Assembly: GCF_017308075.1 (NCBI RefSeq)
Contig: NZ_JAFKFX010000037.1
Coordinates: forward strand, 62,001 to 126,000
DNA: 64,000 nucleotides
Reading direction: 5' to 3'
Source: Allobosea sp.
GTDB taxonomy: Bacteria > Pseudomonadota > Alphaproteobacteria > Rhizobiales > Beijerinckiaceae
Shown here piece after piece: positions 24,026 through 60,583 of the stretch. How positions within the stretch are numbered: the first letter of the stretch is position 1; every line of letters begins with the position of its first letter. The position numbers and the translations under genes were made by a program. The notes under the pieces are model-generated. The model did no database searches and had not been told where the DNA came from. It saw only the letters and a list, made by a program, of their open reading frames with translations.

Positions 24026-24391
24026 TCAGGAACGTTGAACGGCGTGAAAACCAGCCAGTTTGAGTTTATGCCCCACCTCGACGATGGCATTCAACGCCGG
24101 AAGAAGTTCGCTTCCAAGAGGCGTCAGGCGATACTCGACAGTCGGTGGCGTCGTCGCCAGAACATGCCGGGAGATGACGCCGCGTTGCTCCAACTCCCGA
24201 AGCCTCTGGGAGAGGACCTTTGCGGAAATCGGCGGAATATCCATACGTAACTCGCTGAAGCGGCGAGGTCCGCCTCGCAACTGCCAGATGACATTTGGGG
24301 CCCAGGCGCCCTCTATGATCGCCATGCATTCGGTGAGCGCGCACGGCGGCGGCGGCGCCTCGCTTCGATTTTTTCTGACCTTAATCGGCAT
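24026..24391 (-). CDS. HxlR-family winged-helix regulator
   Basis: A 121-residue regulator. The N-terminus has the family cysteine before the recognition fold (CALTECMAIIEGAWAPNVIW), then GGPRRFSELRMDIPPISAKV and LSQRLRELEQRGVI, the HxlR winged-helix pattern, closing with YRLTPLGSELLPAL. HxlR proteins often sense quinones or electrophiles through the conserved Cys. It is divergent from the GST operon, 128 bases away, and probably represses it. Confidence 0.88.
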   Translation of the reverse strand: MPIKVRKNRSEAPPPPCALTECMAIIEGAWAPNVIWQLRGGPRRFSELRMDIPPISAKVLSQRLRELEQRGVISRHVLATTPPTVEYRLTPLGSELLPALNAIVEVGHKLKLAGFHAVQRS

Positions 24392-24427
24392 GTCGAAACC
24401 AGGTTACTCCGCGGAAACGTGAAACGG

Positions 24428-24446
24428 AAGTTTCCAATAGAAACTT
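24428..24446. promoter_or_regulatory. Candidate HxlR operator
   Basis: Perfect inverted repeat AAGTTTC-CAATA-GAAACTT in the AT-rich divergent promoter between the HxlR gene and the GST operon. A second, wider pair GGTTAC (about 24402) and GTAACC (about 24458) brackets it. Both are placed to control the two divergent transcripts. Confidence 0.45.
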
Positions 24447-24519
24447 AGTTGTCATTGGTAACCGAAATTCATAGCTTGAGATCGTCGACGGTCAACCAGC
24501 AGACGACATGGAGTAGCTG

Positions 24520-25146
24520 ATGCACCTGTATTTCAAGCCCGGCGCGTGCTCACTTGCCGCGCGTATCGTTCTCACCGAACTCAATGTCCCTTTCGAAGCC
24601 ACGCAGGTCGACACCAAGACCGGTCTGACGGCAGCCGGTGCTGACTATCGATCGATCAACCCGCGAGGCTATGTGCCGGCGCTCGTCCTTCAGGACGGCA
24701 CGGTCATCACCGAAAATCCAGCGATCCTGCAATATATTGCCGACCGCCATGGCGATGAAGCGCAGCAACCCGCGGCCGGCACGCTCGATCGTGCACGCTT
24801 GCATGAAGCCCTCAACTTCGTCTCCTCGGAACTTCACAAAGCGTTTTCGCCCTATTTCGGCGAGCGCCCGCTCTCACAAACGGAAAAGGAGGCTGCCGAA
24901 GCAGTGCTTGCCCGGCGGATCGGCGATGTCGCAAGCATGCTTGCCGACGGACGAAGCTTTGTCCTCGGAGAGACCTACAGTGTTGCCGATGCATATCTGT
25001 TCGTTGTTCTGAACTGGGCGAGATTTGTCGGACTGGATCTCAGCCGCTGGCCTCAGGTCGAACGATACGTCTCCAGCATGGCGTCACGGCCGGCGGTCCG
25101 CAAGGCGATGGCCGACGAAGGGCTGATCGAGAAGGCCGCCGCATGA
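24520..25146 (+). CDS. Glutathione S-transferase, beta-class-like
   Basis: A 208-residue GST. The thioredoxin-like N-terminal domain opens MHLYFKPGACSLAARIVLTE, with C10 at the site of the beta-class catalytic cysteine, and has the cis-proline glutathione-binding segment GYVPALVLQDG followed by ITENPAILQYIA. The C-terminal all-alpha domain contains GETYSVADAYLFVVLNW. It conjugates or reduces electrophilic compounds using glutathione. It is the first gene of a three-gene operon with a SnoaL-like protein and a tautomerase. Confidence 0.93.
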   Translation: MHLYFKPGACSLAARIVLTELNVPFEATQVDTKTGLTAAGADYRSINPRGYVPALVLQDGTVITENPAILQYIADRHGDEAQQPAAGTLDRARLHEALNFVSSELHKAFSPYFGERPLSQTEKEAAEAVLARRIGDVASMLADGRSFVLGETYSVADAYLFVVLNWARFVGLDLSRWPQVERYVSSMASRPAVRKAMADEGLIEKAAA

Positions 25147-25523
25147 GCGCGCCATTTCAAGCCGTCACCGCGGTCCTCGAGGCGTATTTCGACGGGCTAT
25201 ATTATTGCGACGCCGCGAAGCTCGAGCAGGTCTTTCATCCGAAAGCAATATACGCGACGGCTGACGAAACCCCGCTGCTGTATCGCACGATGCCCGAATA
25301 CATGCAGGTCATCGCGGCCAGAAAGTCTCCGGCCAGTCGCGGCGATGAACGCCACGACGTCATCGACGCCATCGATTTCGCTGGCGATAACACAGCCTTT
25401 GCCCGTGTGCGCTGTACCATAGGCGCGCGTGATTTCGTCGATTTCCTGACGCTGGTGAAGGTCGATGGGCAGTGGCGCATCATGGCCAAGATATTCCAGA
25501 TCATCGAGCGCAAGCCGGAGTAA
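25143..25523 (+). CDS. SnoaL/NTF2-like protein
   Basis: A 126-residue protein of the nuclear-transport-factor-2 fold: an N-terminal helix followed by VLEAYFDGLYYCDAAKLEQVF, FHPKAIYATAD, and the closing beta-sheet with VKVDGQWRIMAKIFQI. Members include putative lumazine-binding proteins, dehydratases and isomerases; no catalytic set can be assigned here. The ATG overlaps the GST stop by four bases, indicating translational coupling. Confidence 0.8.
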   Translation: MSAPFQAVTAVLEAYFDGLYYCDAAKLEQVFHPKAIYATADETPLLYRTMPEYMQVIAARKSPASRGDERHDVIDAIDFAGDNTAFARVRCTIGARDFVDFLTLVKVDGQWRIMAKIFQIIERKPE

Positions 25524-25527
25524 CGCG

Positions 25528-25743
25528 ATGCCCTACGTCAACATCAAGATCACACGCGAGGGTGCGACAGCGGAACAGAAGGCGATGCTCATCAAAGGCG
25601 TCACGGATCTTCTCGTTACGATCCTCGACAAAAAGCCGGCGACCACCTTCGTCGTGATCGACGAGGTCGCTTTTGAAGATTGGGGAGTCGGCGGCCTGCC
25701 TGTCGATGAATATCGCCGTCAACTCGCGAGCGGCGCCACCTAG
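25528..25743 (+). CDS. 4-Oxalocrotonate tautomerase family protein
   Basis: A 71-residue protein starting at 25528, four bases after the SnoaL gene. Removal of Met exposes Pro1 (MPYVNIKITREGATAEQK), the catalytic base of this family, and the rest matches small tautomerases, including FVVIDEVAFEDWGVGG. Such enzymes move double bonds in enol/keto acids or quinone-like compounds. With the GST and HxlR genes it forms a detoxification-type cassette whose codon use is less GC-biased than its neighbours. Confidence 0.88.
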   Translation: MPYVNIKITREGATAEQKAMLIKGVTDLLVTILDKKPATTFVVIDEVAFEDWGVGGLPVDEYRRQLASGAT

Positions 25744-25812
25744 ACTCCAGTCTCATCAGGTATTCCCTTCGCTCCAGTCGGAGCGAAGGTGCAAGGCGAG
25801 GGAAGCCGCGCG

Positions 25813-26286
25813 CTAAACCGTGGTGTCGAGCCAGTTGTCCTCGCGGAAGATCAGCCGGGCGAGAAGCCCGTCCAGCAATTCGCGCTCGGCCGTGGAGGCC
25901 AGAGGCTCGAGCATCGGGCGCTCGCGCGCGACGAAATAGGCGACGACCTTCTCGCTCATTGCGCGCCCCTCCTCCGTCAGCGAGAGCAGCTCGATTTTGC
26001 GGTTCTGCTCGGCCGGTTCCTTCGCGATCAGGCCGAGCCGTACCAGCTTGCCGACCGCCGGGCTGATGCTGTTGCGCGGCCTCCCGGTCATCTCGGCGAT
26101 CTCGATCCCGCTCAGCGGCGTCATATGCGCCAGGCAGAACAGGATCGCCGCCTCGGCCCGGTTGAAGCCGAGATCGGCCTGCACCCGGGCATAGATCACG
26201 CCCATCAGATAATTGGCCAGGAAGCTGATCCGGTAGCCGGTAGTGATCGCGTTGCCGGTGAGCATGGCCTTCGCTGAATCTCGCAT
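25813..26286 (-). CDS. MarR-family regulator
   Basis: A 157-residue winged-helix regulator. Start 26286 (MRDSAKAMLTG) is preferred; another ATG lies in the palindrome at 26346, and a third at 26265. The DNA-binding region reads LSGIEIAEMTGRPRNSISPA then VGKLVRLGLIAKEP with the wing EQNRKIELLSLTEEGRAM. The family usually binds short palindromes and is released by small aromatic or carbonyl ligands. It is divergent from ridA, separated by a perfect palindrome at 26318-26357. Confidence 0.88.
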   Translation of the reverse strand: MRDSAKAMLTGNAITTGYRISFLANYLMGVIYARVQADLGFNRAEAAILFCLAHMTPLSGIEIAEMTGRPRNSISPAVGKLVRLGLIAKEPAEQNRKIELLSLTEEGRAMSEKVVAYFVARERPMLEPLASTAERELLDGLLARLIFREDNWLDTTV

Positions 26287-26301
26287 GCGCGCTGAATCCG
26301 A

Positions 26302-26330
26302 TTGACAGGGATCGGCGCCCGCCCTCTTAT
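26302..26330 (+). promoter_or_regulatory. Sigma-70-type promoter of the ridA operon
   Basis: A perfect -35 hexamer TTGACA (26302-26307), a 17-base spacer and TCTTAT (26325-26330) as -10. The -10 lies inside the left arm of the palindrome, and the predicted start of transcription falls near 26337, at its centre. The leader would then hold only the right arm, leaving AAGAGG free as ribosome-binding site for the GTG at 26364. Confidence 0.6.
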
Positions 26331-26357
26331 GTTCCGAACGGAACATAAGAGGGCGGG
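26318..26357. promoter_or_regulatory. Perfect 40-bp palindrome, candidate MarR operator
   Basis: Arms CCCGCCCTCTTATGTTCCG and its exact reverse complement, separated by AA. Symmetry is perfect over 19 bp per arm. It covers the -10 and start site of the ridA promoter and lies upstream of the MarR start, so binding by MarR would block the ridA operon and probably also its own transcript. The AT-containing core (TATGTTCCG / CGGAACATA) fits MarR-type half-sites. Confidence 0.75.
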
Positions 26358-26363
26358 ACGGTT

Positions 26364-26771
26364 GTGAGACAGCAGGTAGCCAGCGACGGCCCTTATGAAA
26401 AGCGGATTGGCTATTGTCGCGCCGTCCGCGTCGGCAACCATGCCGTCGTCGCCGGTACCACCGCCCTCGGCCCGGACGGCGTGGTCGGGGCGGGCGATGT
26501 CGAGGTCCAGACCAGGGAGAGCCTGCGCAAGATCGCCGAAGCGCTGACGGCCTGCGGCATGAACGGGCTCGAGAACACCGTCCGCACCCGCATCTTCCTG
26601 CGCCATGCCGAAGACTGGGAGAAGGTCGGAAAGATCCACGGCGAGTTCTTCGGGCAGATCCAGCCCGTCACGTCCTTTCTGGCCGGGATCACCTTCATCC
26701 ACCCGGACATCCTGATCGAGATCGAAGCCGACGCAATTCTCGGAGGAGGAGAAAATGGCGTTCACGCGTAG
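26364..26771 (+). CDS. RidA-family protein (imine/enamine deaminase or relative)
   Basis: A 135-residue protein starting at a GTG seven bases beyond the palindrome. The family pattern is clear: RVGNHAVVAGTTALGPDG near the N-terminus, a central helix ending TVRTRIFLRHAEDWEKVGK with the active-site arginine, and closing FIHPDILIEIEADAIL. RidA hydrolyses reactive enamine/imine intermediates to 2-keto acids and ammonia; some family members have other roles. The stop overlaps the start of the downstream TRAP receptor by 17 bases. Confidence 0.85.
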   Translation: MRQQVASDGPYEKRIGYCRAVRVGNHAVVAGTTALGPDGVVGAGDVEVQTRESLRKIAEALTACGMNGLENTVRTRIFLRHAEDWEKVGKIHGEFFGQIQPVTSFLAGITFIHPDILIEIEADAILGGGENGVHA

Positions 26772-27834
26772 GCGGATACTGGCCGGAGCAGCCGCGGCCA
26801 CGACGATCGCAGCACCGGCGGCAGCGCAGCAATCCGGCGAGCTGCGCTGGCGCCTGGCCTCGAGCTTCCCGAAATCCCTGCCGATCCTGTTCAATGCCGC
26901 CGAGAACCTGGCGCGCCGGGTCGATCAGCTGACCAAGGGACGCTTCAAGATCCAGGTCTTCGCGGCCGGCGAGATCGTCGGCGGGCTCCAGGTGCTCGAT
27001 GCGGTCGGCGCCGGGACCATCGAATGCGGCCACAGCGCGACCTTCTACTATACCGGCAAGGACAAGGCGCTCGCCTTCGATACCGGCCTGCCCTTCGGCC
27101 TCAATTCGCGCCAGCACATCGCCTGGATGATGCAGGGCGGCGGCCTCGAGTTGCTGCGGCCCCTCTTCGCCCGCTTCGGCGTGGTTCAGTTCCCGCTCGG
27201 CAATACCGGTTGCCAGATGGGCGGCTGGTTCCGCAAGGAGATCAGCAGCGTCGCCGATCTCTCCGGCCTGAAGATGCGCATCCCCGGCATCGGCGGCGAG
27301 ATTCTGTCGCGCATGGGCGTCGTGCCGCAGACCATCGCCGCCGGCGACATCTATTCGGCCCTGGAGCGCGGCACGATCGACGCGGTCGAATGGGTCGGCC
27401 CGGCCGATGACGAGCGCCTCGGCTTCCAGAAGGTCGCGCGCTACTATTACTCGCCGGGCTGGTGGGACTGCGGCCCGCAGATCAGCCTCTACATCAACGA
27501 CAAGGCCTGGGCCGCCCTGCCCGAAGAGTTCAAGGCGGCGATCGAGACGGCGAGCGCCGAGTCGACCATGCTGATGCTCGCCCAATACGACACCCAGAAC
27601 ATGGCCGCCCTGCGCCGGCTGGTCGGTGCTGGCGTACAGCTCCGCTCCTTCCCCCGCGACGTGATGGAAGCTGCGTTCAAGGCGGCAGACGCCTATTATC
27701 GCGAGGAAGCGGCGCGCAATGCCGAGTTCCGGCGGATCTACGAGCCGTGGACGCGCTTCCGCGACGAGATCCAGCAATGGTTCCGCATCGCCGAGCTGAA
27801 CTACGACGTCTTCGCGCATACGCAGAAGCGATGA
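26755..27834 (+). CDS. TRAP transporter receptor, TakP-like (2-keto-acid type), orphan
   Basis: A 359-residue periplasmic binding protein with a Tat-type signal (MAFTRRRILAGAAAATTIAA, cleavage near AQQ). The mature protein follows the TakP pattern: WRLASSFPKSLP, FKIQVFAAGEIVGGLQVLDA, GHSATFYYTGKD, GNTGCQMGGWFRKEI and ALERGTIDAVEWVGP. TakP of Rhodobacter binds 2-oxo acids with sodium. No DctQ or DctM gene follows, so membrane partners must be elsewhere. It overlaps ridA by 17 bases and is clearly paralogous to the protein encoded at 43668-44765. Confidence 0.9.
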   Translation: MAFTRRRILAGAAAATTIAAPAAAQQSGELRWRLASSFPKSLPILFNAAENLARRVDQLTKGRFKIQVFAAGEIVGGLQVLDAVGAGTIECGHSATFYYTGKDKALAFDTGLPFGLNSRQHIAWMMQGGGLELLRPLFARFGVVQFPLGNTGCQMGGWFRKEISSVADLSGLKMRIPGIGGEILSRMGVVPQTIAAGDIYSALERGTIDAVEWVGPADDERLGFQKVARYYYSPGWWDCGPQISLYINDKAWAALPEEFKAAIETASAESTMLMLAQYDTQNMAALRRLVGAGVQLRSFPRDVMEAAFKAADAYYREEAARNAEFRRIYEPWTRFRDEIQQWFRIAELNYDVFAHTQKR

Positions 27835-27883: not shown

Positions 27884-28579
27884 GTGAAACCGCTCGGCCT
27901 GCTCGGCGGCATGAGCTGGGAGAGCACGGCGGTGTATTACCGCCTGCTCAACGAGGGCGCGCGGGCCAGGCTCGGCGGGCTCCACTCCGCCCCGCTCCTG
28001 CTGCATTCCTTCGACTTCGCCGCGATCGCCCGCCTTCAGGCGGCCGGTGCCACGGCCGAACTGGCGGAGCTGATGACCGCCGCCGCCCGCGGCCTCGAGC
28101 GGGCGGGCGCGGCCGGCGTCATGATCTGCGCCAACACCATGCACAGCCTCGCTCCGCAGATCGAGGCGGCGATCGGCATCCCGCTCATCCATGTCGTCGA
28201 CGTCACCGCACGCGCCATCGAGGCCGCAGGCTGCCGGCGGCCGGCCCTGCTCGCCACCCGCTACACCATGGAACAGGGCTTTTATCGTCAGCGCCTTGCG
28301 CAAGGCGGCCTGCTGTCTCCGGCGATCCCCGACGCGCGGGGGCGCCTCGCGATCAGCGACATCATCTTCGAGGAGCTTTGCTGCGGCATCATACGCCCAC
28401 AATCGCGCGCGACCTGCCTGCACGAAGTCGAGCGCATGCGGCCTCAGGCGATCGACAGCGTCATCCTCGGCTGCACTGAGCTGACGCTGCTGCTCTCGCA
28501 GGGCGACTTCGCTCTGCCGGTCTTCGACACGACGCAGCTCCACGTCGCCGCAGGCCTGGATTTCGCCTTCTCCGGCTGA
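27884..28579 (+). CDS. Aspartate/glutamate racemase family protein, YgeA-like
   Basis: A 231-residue protein beginning at GTG with the typical MKPLGLLGGMSWESTAVYYR. The two catalytic cysteines are present: C82 in ICANTMH and one in ILGCTEL in the C-terminal half. The region ATRYTMEQGFYRQRL is characteristic of the YgeA branch, which racemises several amino acids without PLP. It lies 49 bases after the TRAP receptor and is probably the last gene of the MarR-controlled operon. Substrate is not deducible. Confidence 0.88.
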   Translation: MKPLGLLGGMSWESTAVYYRLLNEGARARLGGLHSAPLLLHSFDFAAIARLQAAGATAELAELMTAAARGLERAGAAGVMICANTMHSLAPQIEAAIGIPLIHVVDVTARAIEAAGCRRPALLATRYTMEQGFYRQRLAQGGLLSPAIPDARGRLAISDIIFEELCCGIIRPQSRATCLHEVERMRPQAIDSVILGCTELTLLLSQGDFALPVFDTTQLHVAAGLDFAFSG

Positions 28580-36405: not shown

Positions 36406-36520
36406 CCTCATCCTGAGGAGCCATTTCGTCCGAAATGGCGTCTCGAAGGATGGTCCAGGAGGCTCCCGAGACATCTGGATCATCCTTCGAGACGCCGCTT
36501 CGCGGCTCCCCAGGATGAGG
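36406..36520. repeat. Large imperfect palindromic repeat inside the ABC operon
   Basis: Outer arms CCTCATCCTGAGGAGC (36406 onward) and GCTCCCCAGGATGAGG (ending 36520) differ at one base; inner arms GCGTCTCGAAGGATG and CATCCTTCGAGACGC are perfect. The left half holds an additional small hairpin (CATTTCG-TC-CGAAATG). This resembles dispersed alphaproteobacterial palindromic elements. It occupies the 313-base gap between receptor and permease genes and could act as an mRNA-stability or attenuation element. Confidence 0.75.
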
Positions 36521-58381: not shown

Positions 58382-59452
58382 TCAAGGCACTGCGAGCAGA
58401 TGGATCAGCCCGAGCGAGATCGCTCCGAGCGCGAGAAGCGACAAGATGACTGCGGCGCTGACGCGAGGGCCGGCCTTGGCGACGGAGCGAAGATCGACGC
58501 CGAGCCCGAGCGCAGCCATTGAGATGATGGTCAGCAGGTTCGCCAGACCGGCCAACGGGCTCAGCAATACCGTCGGGATCAGTCCGGCCGAGCGGAGCGC
58601 CGCCATCACCACGAAGCCGACGATGAACCAGGGCACGATGTGATGAGGGGCGAACCGGTGCCCGGCGGCAGGCGCGTCTGTCCGTCCACGCAGCCGGATC
58701 GACAGCATCGACAGCACGAGCACAACGGGCCCGAGCATCAGCACGCGCACCAGCTTGACCAGGGTTCCGAGCTGGATCGCCGCCTGGCCGGCCGGCGCCG
58801 TGGCCGCGAGGACCTGAGGGACAGCATAGACCGTCAGGCCCGCCAGGATGCCGAACTGGTGGACGCTGAGGCCGAGCAGCGCGATCAGCAGCGGCAGGCC
58901 GAGGACGACCGCGACCCCGAGCACCGCCGTGAAGGCGATCGACGCCGCGACATCATCGCCATCGGCCCCGATGACCGGCGCGACAGCCGCGATCGCTGAA
59001 TTTCCGCAGATCGAGTTGCCGCAGGCGACGAGGATCGCCATGCGCTGCGGCAGGCCGAGCAGGCGGCCGATGCCATAGCTCAGGCCGATCGCCACGAAGA
59101 CGACCGCGGCGATCCCGAGCAGCAGCGGCGCGCCGGCTGCGGCGATCGTCGCGGCGCTCAGCGAAGCACCGAGCAAGACGACCGCGATCTCCAGCAGCGT
59201 CTTCGCCGAGAGCGCGATGCCCGGGAGCCAGCGGCGACCGGGACGCCAGAGGGACCTGACCAAGGTGCCGATCAGGATCGCCAGAACCAGGGCTTCGAGC
59301 CAGGCCCGCCCGAAAAATCCGGCCTCGACATGCTCGGCGGCCAGCGCCACGCCCGACACGACCAGGCACAGCAGCAGGCCCGGTCCGAAATGCCTTGCCT
59401 TGGCGGCGATCTGGTCGGCCAGCCCGGCCTGGCCCTGGGTCTGCAAAGTCAT
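58382..59452 (-). CDS. YeiH-family putative exporter
   Basis: A 356-residue inner-membrane protein with about ten helices. Family segments are visible: LSAKTLLEIAVVLLGASLSA, ACGNSICGNSAIAAVAPVIG and IAFTAVLGVAVVLGLPLLIA. YeiH proteins are annotated as putative sulphate or sulphonate exporters; transport has not been firmly shown for most. It is divergent from a LysR gene 204 bases away, an arrangement seen also in other bacteria (yeiE-yeiH). Confidence 0.9.
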   Translation of the reverse strand: MTLQTQGQAGLADQIAAKARHFGPGLLLCLVVSGVALAAEHVEAGFFGRAWLEALVLAILIGTLVRSLWRPGRRWLPGIALSAKTLLEIAVVLLGASLSAATIAAAGAPLLLGIAAVVFVAIGLSYGIGRLLGLPQRMAILVACGNSICGNSAIAAVAPVIGADGDDVAASIAFTAVLGVAVVLGLPLLIALLGLSVHQFGILAGLTVYAVPQVLAATAPAGQAAIQLGTLVKLVRVLMLGPVVLVLSMLSIRLRGRTDAPAAGHRFAPHHIVPWFIVGFVVMAALRSAGLIPTVLLSPLAGLANLLTIISMAALGLGVDLRSVAKAGPRVSAAVILSLLALGAISLGLIHLLAVP

Positions 59453-59501: not shown

Positions 59502-59557
59502 TCAATCAAACGGGTTGATTGAGTTATTATGATCGATAATATCGATCATAATAACTC
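59502..59557. promoter_or_regulatory. Two adjacent palindromes, candidate LysR operator
   Basis: Left: TCAATCAA-ACGGG-TTGATTGA (59502-59522). Right: a 37-bp perfect palindrome at 59521-59557 with 18-bp arms beginning GAGTTATTATGATCGATA around one central A. They share two bases. LysR regulators bind AT-rich dyads of T-N11-A type; the right-hand element contains several such arrangements. Both lie in the divergent promoter between the yeiH-like and LysR genes. Confidence 0.7.
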
Positions 59558-59656: not shown

Positions 59657-60583
59657 ATGACCCTCGAGCAGCTTCGCATCTTCGTAGCGGTCGCCGAGCG
59701 CGAGCACGTCACCCGCGCAGCCGCAGCGCTCAACCTCACCCAATCGGCAACGAGCGCCGCCATCGCCGCGCTTGAACAGCGCCATGCGGTGAAGCTGTTC
59801 GACCGCGTCGGGCGCCGGATCATGCTGACCGATGCCGGCGCCCTGTTCCTCGTCGAAGCGCGCGCGATCCTCGCCCGCGCCACGGCCGGCGAGCAGGTCC
59901 TGTCGGATCTCGCCGGGCTGAAGCGCGGCCGGCTGGCCCTCGCCGCGAGCCAGACGATCGGCAATTACTGGCTGCCGCGCCGGCTCGCAGCGTTTCGTGC
60001 CCGGCATCCGGGCATCGAGACGCCCTTGGTCATCGGCAACACCGAGACGGTCGCCGCCGCGATCCATGACGGGCTCGCCGATATCGGCTTCGTCGAAGGC
60101 GAGGTCGACGATCCCCATCTGGCGAGCCAGGTCGTGGCGATGGACGAGATGACGATCGTCGTGGCGCCGGAGCATCCCTGGGCCAGGCGGGACCACATCG
60201 ATGCATCGGCCTTCGACCAGACATCCTGGATCCTGCGGGAGCCCGGCTCGGGCACGAGGCAGCTTCTGGACACCGTGCTCGCCGACGCCGGAGGCTCGCT
60301 CGCCGCGCTCGATATCGCACTGGAACTGCCCGCCAACGAGGCCGTGCGCGCCGCGGTCGAGGCGGGCGCCGGCGCCAGCCTGATGTCGCGGCTCGTCGTC
60401 GCCAACGCCCTGCATTCGGGTGCGCTCGTCGAAGTCGCAGTGGATATTCCGGCCCGGCGTTTCATCATGCTGCGGCACAAGGAACGCTATCTCAGCCGGG
60501 CCGCGCAGGCCTTCAGCGTCCTTCTCGCGGAGGACGCTTCCGGGAGCGCCCCCCCAGGACCGCCAAAGCAGCGCCTCCCATGA
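59657..60583 (+). CDS. LysR-family regulator
   Basis: A 308-residue regulator with the standard N-terminal helix-turn-helix (MTLEQLRIFVAVAEREHVTR, AAALNLTQSATSAAIAALEQ). The ligand domain shows RLALAASQTIGNYWLPRRLA and later LREPGSGTRQLLDTVL, the pattern of CysB/YeiE-like effector domains. The gene is divergent from the yeiH-like exporter and most likely controls it through the palindromes at 59502-59557. Confidence 0.9.
   Translation: MTLEQLRIFVAVAEREHVTRAAAALNLTQSATSAAIAALEQRHAVKLFDRVGRRIMLTDAGALFLVEARAILARATAGEQVLSDLAGLKRGRLALAASQTIGNYWLPRRLAAFRARHPGIETPLVIGNTETVAAAIHDGLADIGFVEGEVDDPHLASQVVAMDEMTIVVAPEHPWARRDHIDASAFDQTSWILREPGSGTRQLLDTVLADAGGSLAALDIALELPANEAVRAAVEAGAGASLMSRLVVANALHSGALVEVAVDIPARRFIMLRHKERYLSRAAQAFSVLLAEDASGSAPPGPPKQRLP

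Follow-up and report, generated by a model that had tools for sequence, protein, structure and literature searches.

A perfect 40-bp palindrome as the probable operator of a divergent MarR-type regulator upstream of a Rid-family/TRAP transporter operon

The perfect palindrome at 26318–26357 of the 64-kb stretch of DNA analysed here (the window) very probably represents the operator of the adjacent, divergently oriented MarR-type regulator, overlying the probable promoter of an operon which starts with a Rid-family gene. A MarR operator over this promoter had been suggested by the earlier note, and the suggestion gains support from the co-occurrence of the core palindrome with one subfamily of MarR proteins. 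The site would be of an ordinary regulatory kind, and the identity of its reader is fairly well supported by comparison of homologous loci. On sequence grounds we infer binding, promoter use, autorepression and the nature of a ligand as follows: (i) a MarR dimer would read the two GTTCC half-sites of the core (GTTCC-N4-GGAAC); (ii) since the palindrome extends from about −20 to about +20 relative to the predicted rid start, the bound protein would cover the −10 region as well as the start of the rid-dctP-racemase operon and block RNA polymerase; (iii) since the marR start is located 51 nt downstream of the centre of the core palindrome, the same site probably represses marR, too; and (iv) an inducer, perhaps an amino acid- or keto acid-like compound related to the transporter and the racemase, would release MarR. 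The operon content (Rid-family protein, TRAP binding protein, Asp/Glu racemase) suggests such an amino- or keto-acid signal.

The arms of the palindrome (26318–26336 and 26339–26357; CCCGCCCTCTTATGTTCCG-AA-CGGAACATAAGAGGGCGGG) comprise 19 nt each and are 100 % complementary. The flawless 40-bp palindrome with 19-bp arms and a two-base spacer, as described before, is borne out. When the window was shuffled 40 times with its dinucleotide content preserved, the longest perfect arm per shuffle amounted to 9–14 bp (loop ≤8). It is the longest perfect palindrome of the window; longer-armed inverted repeats are also present but imperfect, and one of 35-nt arms (83 % complementary, 2 nt between) is located at 36431–36502. 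A scan of 464 kb of this genome, made up of the window and 20 further stretches of 20 kb each, retrieved no perfect palindrome with arms >14 bp (loop ≤12) outside the window, the two longest ones (19- and 18-bp arms) both residing inside it. The second of these (59521–59557; 18-bp arms, 1-nt centre) is flanked by a gene for a membrane protein, presumably YeiH-like (58382–59452, minus strand), and by a LysR-type gene recognized by eye (59657–60583, plus strand); its inner 31 nt are absent from 19 other genomes of the genus at ≤3 mismatches. A dispersed repeat or the end of a mobile element was rejected as explanation for the palindrome at 26318–26357, since its extended core (TGTTCCGNNCGGAACA) is single copy, with no second site in the genome at ≤1 mismatch. 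Likewise, an intrinsic terminator was dismissed, none being found in 25700–26500.

The marR gene (25813–26286, minus strand) encodes a protein of 157 amino acids with a MarR domain, for which the MarR and MarR_2 profiles both pass (PF12802, 32.5 bits, cut-off 27; PF01047, 27.7 bits, cut-off 24.6); TrmB (PF01978) also scores above its cut-off (32.4 versus 25.6 bits). The start at 26286 is favoured, rather than an ATG within the palindrome (26346), because Bosea sp. WAO carries a 1-nt indel just upstream of the 26286 start. Genes of HxlR-type, GST, lumazine-binding-like and tautomerase proteins are located between a large NRPS-like gene and marR (24026–25743), the GST/tautomerase cluster upstream of marR being encoded on the plus strand. 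On the other side of the palindrome, a GTG codon opens the Rid-family gene (26364–26771, plus strand; Ribonuc_L-PSP, PF01042, 67.2 bits, cut-off 27.3). Its former designation as ridA holds for the family domain, but whether the gene is a strict ridA is questionable, since the alignment with 2dyy places Thr (PVTS versus PARV) at the Arg (Arg105/107) which we take to be the catalytic residue of RidA, and TIGR00004 scores below its cut-off (46.8 versus 106.25 bits). The nearest solved structure by sequence is 3i7t. According to the part of PMC4433059 available, this Arg is kept in RidA and Rid1–3, replaced by Trp in Rid4 and Rid7, and variable in Rid5 and Rid6; the product thus fits the description of Rid5/Rid6. 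The dctP gene for a TRAP solute-binding protein (26755–27834, plus strand) overlaps the end of the Rid-family gene; solved relatives of its product include 2hzk, deposited under the name SmoM, and 7ug8, the entry of a ketoacid-binding protein. An Asp/Glu racemase family gene (27884–28579, plus strand) is a probable further member of the operon.

The promoter proposed by the earlier note was found where it had been placed, i.e., a −35-like TTGACA (26302–26307, plus strand; 6/6 matches, kept in strain WAO), a spacer of 17 nt and a −10-like TCTTAT within the left arm (26325–26330, plus strand), even though the −10 is weak (4/6 matches, A at position 2 missing). A sigma-70 scan of 25700–26500 reported no promoter, because it demands the A at position 2 which TCTTAT lacks. 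TTGACA occurs three times in the window, counting both strands together, and two pairings of TTGACA with a hexamer at 16–18 nt reach 4/6. A rid promoter at 26302–26330 is regarded as probable, with moderate confidence. For marR, the minus strand offers no good promoter, the best candidate matching 7/12 positions. The right arm indeed supplies the predicted ribosome-binding site, AAGAGGG (26347–26353, plus strand), followed after 10 nt by the GTG at 26364.

Location of this Shine-Dalgarno-like stretch within the stem would also agree with the palindrome acting as an RNA hairpin, such that transcripts arriving from upstream fold and hide AAGAGGG, yet this reading appears highly improbable. A strong fold is predicted for RNA containing both arms (−44.2 kcal/mol, z −7.1, 0/200 shuffles as good), and the plus-strand cluster upstream of marR might provide read-through in the window. 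RNA from the predicted start at the centre, however, omits the left arm, and transcripts from 26337 fold in an ordinary manner (64 nt, z −1.55, 19/200 shuffles as good; 54 nt, z −0.06). In addition, the NRPS-like gene of strain WAO adjoins marR and shares its strand, so that this next upstream gene and marR are both oriented opposite to rid while the palindrome is unchanged; 8.5 kb of this locus reveal no obvious source of read-through into the palindrome. Moreover, the motif is found again in homologues, where the outer flanks mostly do not pair. Thus, the suggested hiding of the ribosome-binding site stands with respect to a strong fold of RNAs starting upstream, but not with respect to the predicted start, nor is an upstream transcript evident in strain WAO. 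In the 64-nt RNA (26337–26400), CAUAAG of the right arm forms base pairs with CUUAUG near the beginning of the rid gene, but this fold is not significant (19/200 shuffles as good, see above); strain WAO differs by one base in the region of this pairing.

Assignment of the palindrome to a MarR protein as operator rests on the core GTTCC-GAAC-GGAAC (26331–26344), predicted for a MarR subfamily from motif co-occurrence in the upstream regions of homologues. MarR homologues (26–41 % identical to that of the window) were taken from whole genomes and plasmids, among the matches listed. Of 86 loci, 83 were retained (L066, L067 and L090 had no tblastn match at 1e-3), and removal of 26 near-duplicates by shared 4-mers, WAO among them, left 57 dereplicated regions; L044, a gene with internal stop, was kept, and only 107 bp of upstream sequence were available for L015. 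The motif GTTCC-N4-GGAAC was first spotted by eye in L053, L057, L058 and the window, then scanned for elsewhere, the 230-bp zone being set afterwards. Within this zone, a site with ≤1 mismatch is present in 37 of the 57 regions (window included) versus 0.92 % of 2850 control segments drawn from the same loci; before dereplication, 57/83 loci possess one, among the matches listed. The best site has no mismatch in 14 regions, one in 23, two in 6 and at least three in 14. A ranking of palindromes blind to the motif and omitting the window, WAO, L053, L057 and L058 (53 regions) placed GTTCC-N4-GGAAC first among 11,264 palindromes, with occurrence in 33/53 regions versus 5/318 controls, among the matches listed.

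The motif is also linked to the recognition helix: proteins with P[KR]N[ST]xS, a class chosen after seeing the data, have the site in 30/36 cases, those with other helices in 6/20 (Fisher p 1e-4, window left out). The adjacent MarR of the window belongs to this helix class, which is shared by 6 of the 20 regions (among 57) devoid of a site at ≤1 mismatch. Single-linkage clustering at 40 % identity assembles all 37 site-bearing members in the 50-member cluster that holds the MarR of the window, and none of the seven proteins outside has a site; therefore, the motif looks like a trait of one MarR subfamily. At 45 %, 15 clusters are formed, seven of them with site (including that of the window), and a single cluster accounts for 29/37 site-bearing members. 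Since the homologues share ancestry and are not independent, the p values of these motif tests overstate the evidence.

A matrix built from 54 sites has its best match in the window at 26325–26350 (score 20.8; next 14.3), a partly circular result, since these sites were picked by a pattern that the window matches exactly. The second-best match (24425–24450, with AAGTTTCCAATAGAAACTT) is located in the HxlR-GST intergenic region and may be the HxlR protein's own site. Nine MarR loci (L013, L014, L022, L039, L044, L076, L078, L092 and L099) have two such sites upstream (≤1 mismatch), spaced 23–27 or 49–53 bp apart, i.e., near whole helical turns; spacings differ in L084 (22) and L033 (64), and the window has a single site. 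There is no sign of a wide regulon of the window's MarR, as GTTCCNNNNGGAAC occurs six times in the genome versus seven times for a reversed control. Searches with exact letter strings, which are a poor key, retrieved no literature report of GTTCC-N4-GGAAC as a MarR operator. In the parts of two articles available, it is not given as such an operator (PMC5343134), or GTTCC and GGAAC appear only in primers (PMC5401885).

The same genome encodes a MarR paralogue on contig C45 (L070, 26 % identity, helix GLPKNTLS) with the same core upstream of its own gene, namely GTTCCATATGGAAC without mismatch at a distance of about 96 nt from the extrapolated start. Hence, the palindrome could belong to another regulator such as this paralogue, the adjacent MarR acting elsewhere. 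We consider this very unlikely, since it is the adjacent MarR that carries the motif-linked helix class, and since marR and rid are, at the cut-offs used, co-present or co-absent in 67 genomes of the genus: a MarR match at E 1e-15 occurs in 19/67 genomes and one of at least 94 % identity in 2/67, and it is the same two in which rid is matched at E ≤1e-40. The paralogue might nevertheless cross-bind at the palindrome.

The nearest named relative, Bosea sp. WAO, is the only relative with the same locus, the order marR-rid-dctP-racemase being retained with proteins 87–97 % identical. HxlR, GST, lumazine-binding and tautomerase proteins had no match in 8.5 kb of the WAO locus. The palindrome is identical at 40/40 positions, the neighbouring 31 bp (26287–26317) at 25/31. 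A search for the palindrome beside marR-rid pairs in related genomes, as recommended earlier, was thus successful for strain WAO, but across the order TTATGTTCCGNNCGGAACATAA was found at ≤2 mismatches in only 2/397 genomes (a sample without WAO), namely the own genome and one 2-mismatch match. Between the window and WAO, 66/348 fourfold sites in marR, rid and dctP are different (19 %); at this rate, the chance of zero change is 0.0002 for the 40 bases of the palindrome and 0.004 for the 26 outer ones. Since it rises to 0.065 for the 13 outer bases remaining when the −10-like and Shine-Dalgarno-like stretches are set aside, a separate constraint on the outermost bases gains mild support, which does not amount to proof.

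The long perfect arms pose a small separate puzzle, the operator being more symmetric than its relatives need. All 13 outer pairs beyond the 14-bp core are mirrored in the window versus a mean of 3.4 and a maximum of 7 of 13 in the 54 related sites, even base use giving one quarter, i.e., 3.25; the next longest among these sites extends 14 pairs from the centre. Since the related sites show hardly any symmetry beyond the core, such long arms do not appear to be called for by binding of the subfamily alone. One may speculate that the core is the MarR operator and that the outer arms, without function of their own, owe their symmetry to a template-switch mutation which acted on a quasipalindrome. 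This is compatible with the operator reading, and we hold it plausible, if slightly short of probable. It agrees with the low outer symmetry of related operators and with the perfection of quasipalindromes by template switching in E. coli, as described in the part of PMC7202029 available; the unchanged outer bases between two species with 19 % fourfold difference (see the chances of 0.004 and 0.065 above) argue against it. Alternatively, the symmetry may be functional: both strands would receive a −10-like TCTTAT and an AAGAGGG leader within one 40-bp element, a single MarR site thereby controlling two divergent promoters which overlap, or else the outer arms would serve a cruciform or contact with a second protein. 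Separately, GTTCC-N4-GGAAC would be common to the whole MarR subfamily as its operator. This combination seems rather unlikely. Template switching, a symmetric −10/leader pair and an additional contact could each be the source of the symmetry.

With the palindrome read as MarR operator, a striking sequence feature yields a testable prediction of the operator used by a MarR subfamily that occurs in several families of the class, and the motif together with the P[KR]N[ST]xS helix would be of help in finding the targets of uncharacterised MarR genes. MarR regulators typically bind palindromes of 16–20 bp, often overlapping the −10 and −35 elements, as stated in the part of PMC5401885 available. 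The locus agrees with MarR-family local repressors in that the regulator is divergent from its target and the palindrome overlies the probable promoter, but differs from them by its perfect 19-bp arms. Two further loci (L014 and L076; MarR identity 36–38 %), in which marR is divergent from a gene for a DctP-like protein as judged by eye, likewise have GTTCC-N4-GGAAC upstream (one and no mismatch, respectively), but possess two sites 24 bp apart instead of one. In Shinella sp. HZN7 and Rhizobium sp. CC-CFT758, a homologous MarR is encoded next to genes for creatininase, isoaspartyl peptidase and an ABC transporter. Compared to the window, the transporter class differs in both, and Shinella sp. 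HZN7 has no site at ≤1 mismatch. Shared with the window is the placement of uptake and catabolism genes alongside marR, and in Rhizobium sp. CC-CFT758 a RidA-family gene is located nearby and two sites are present at one mismatch.
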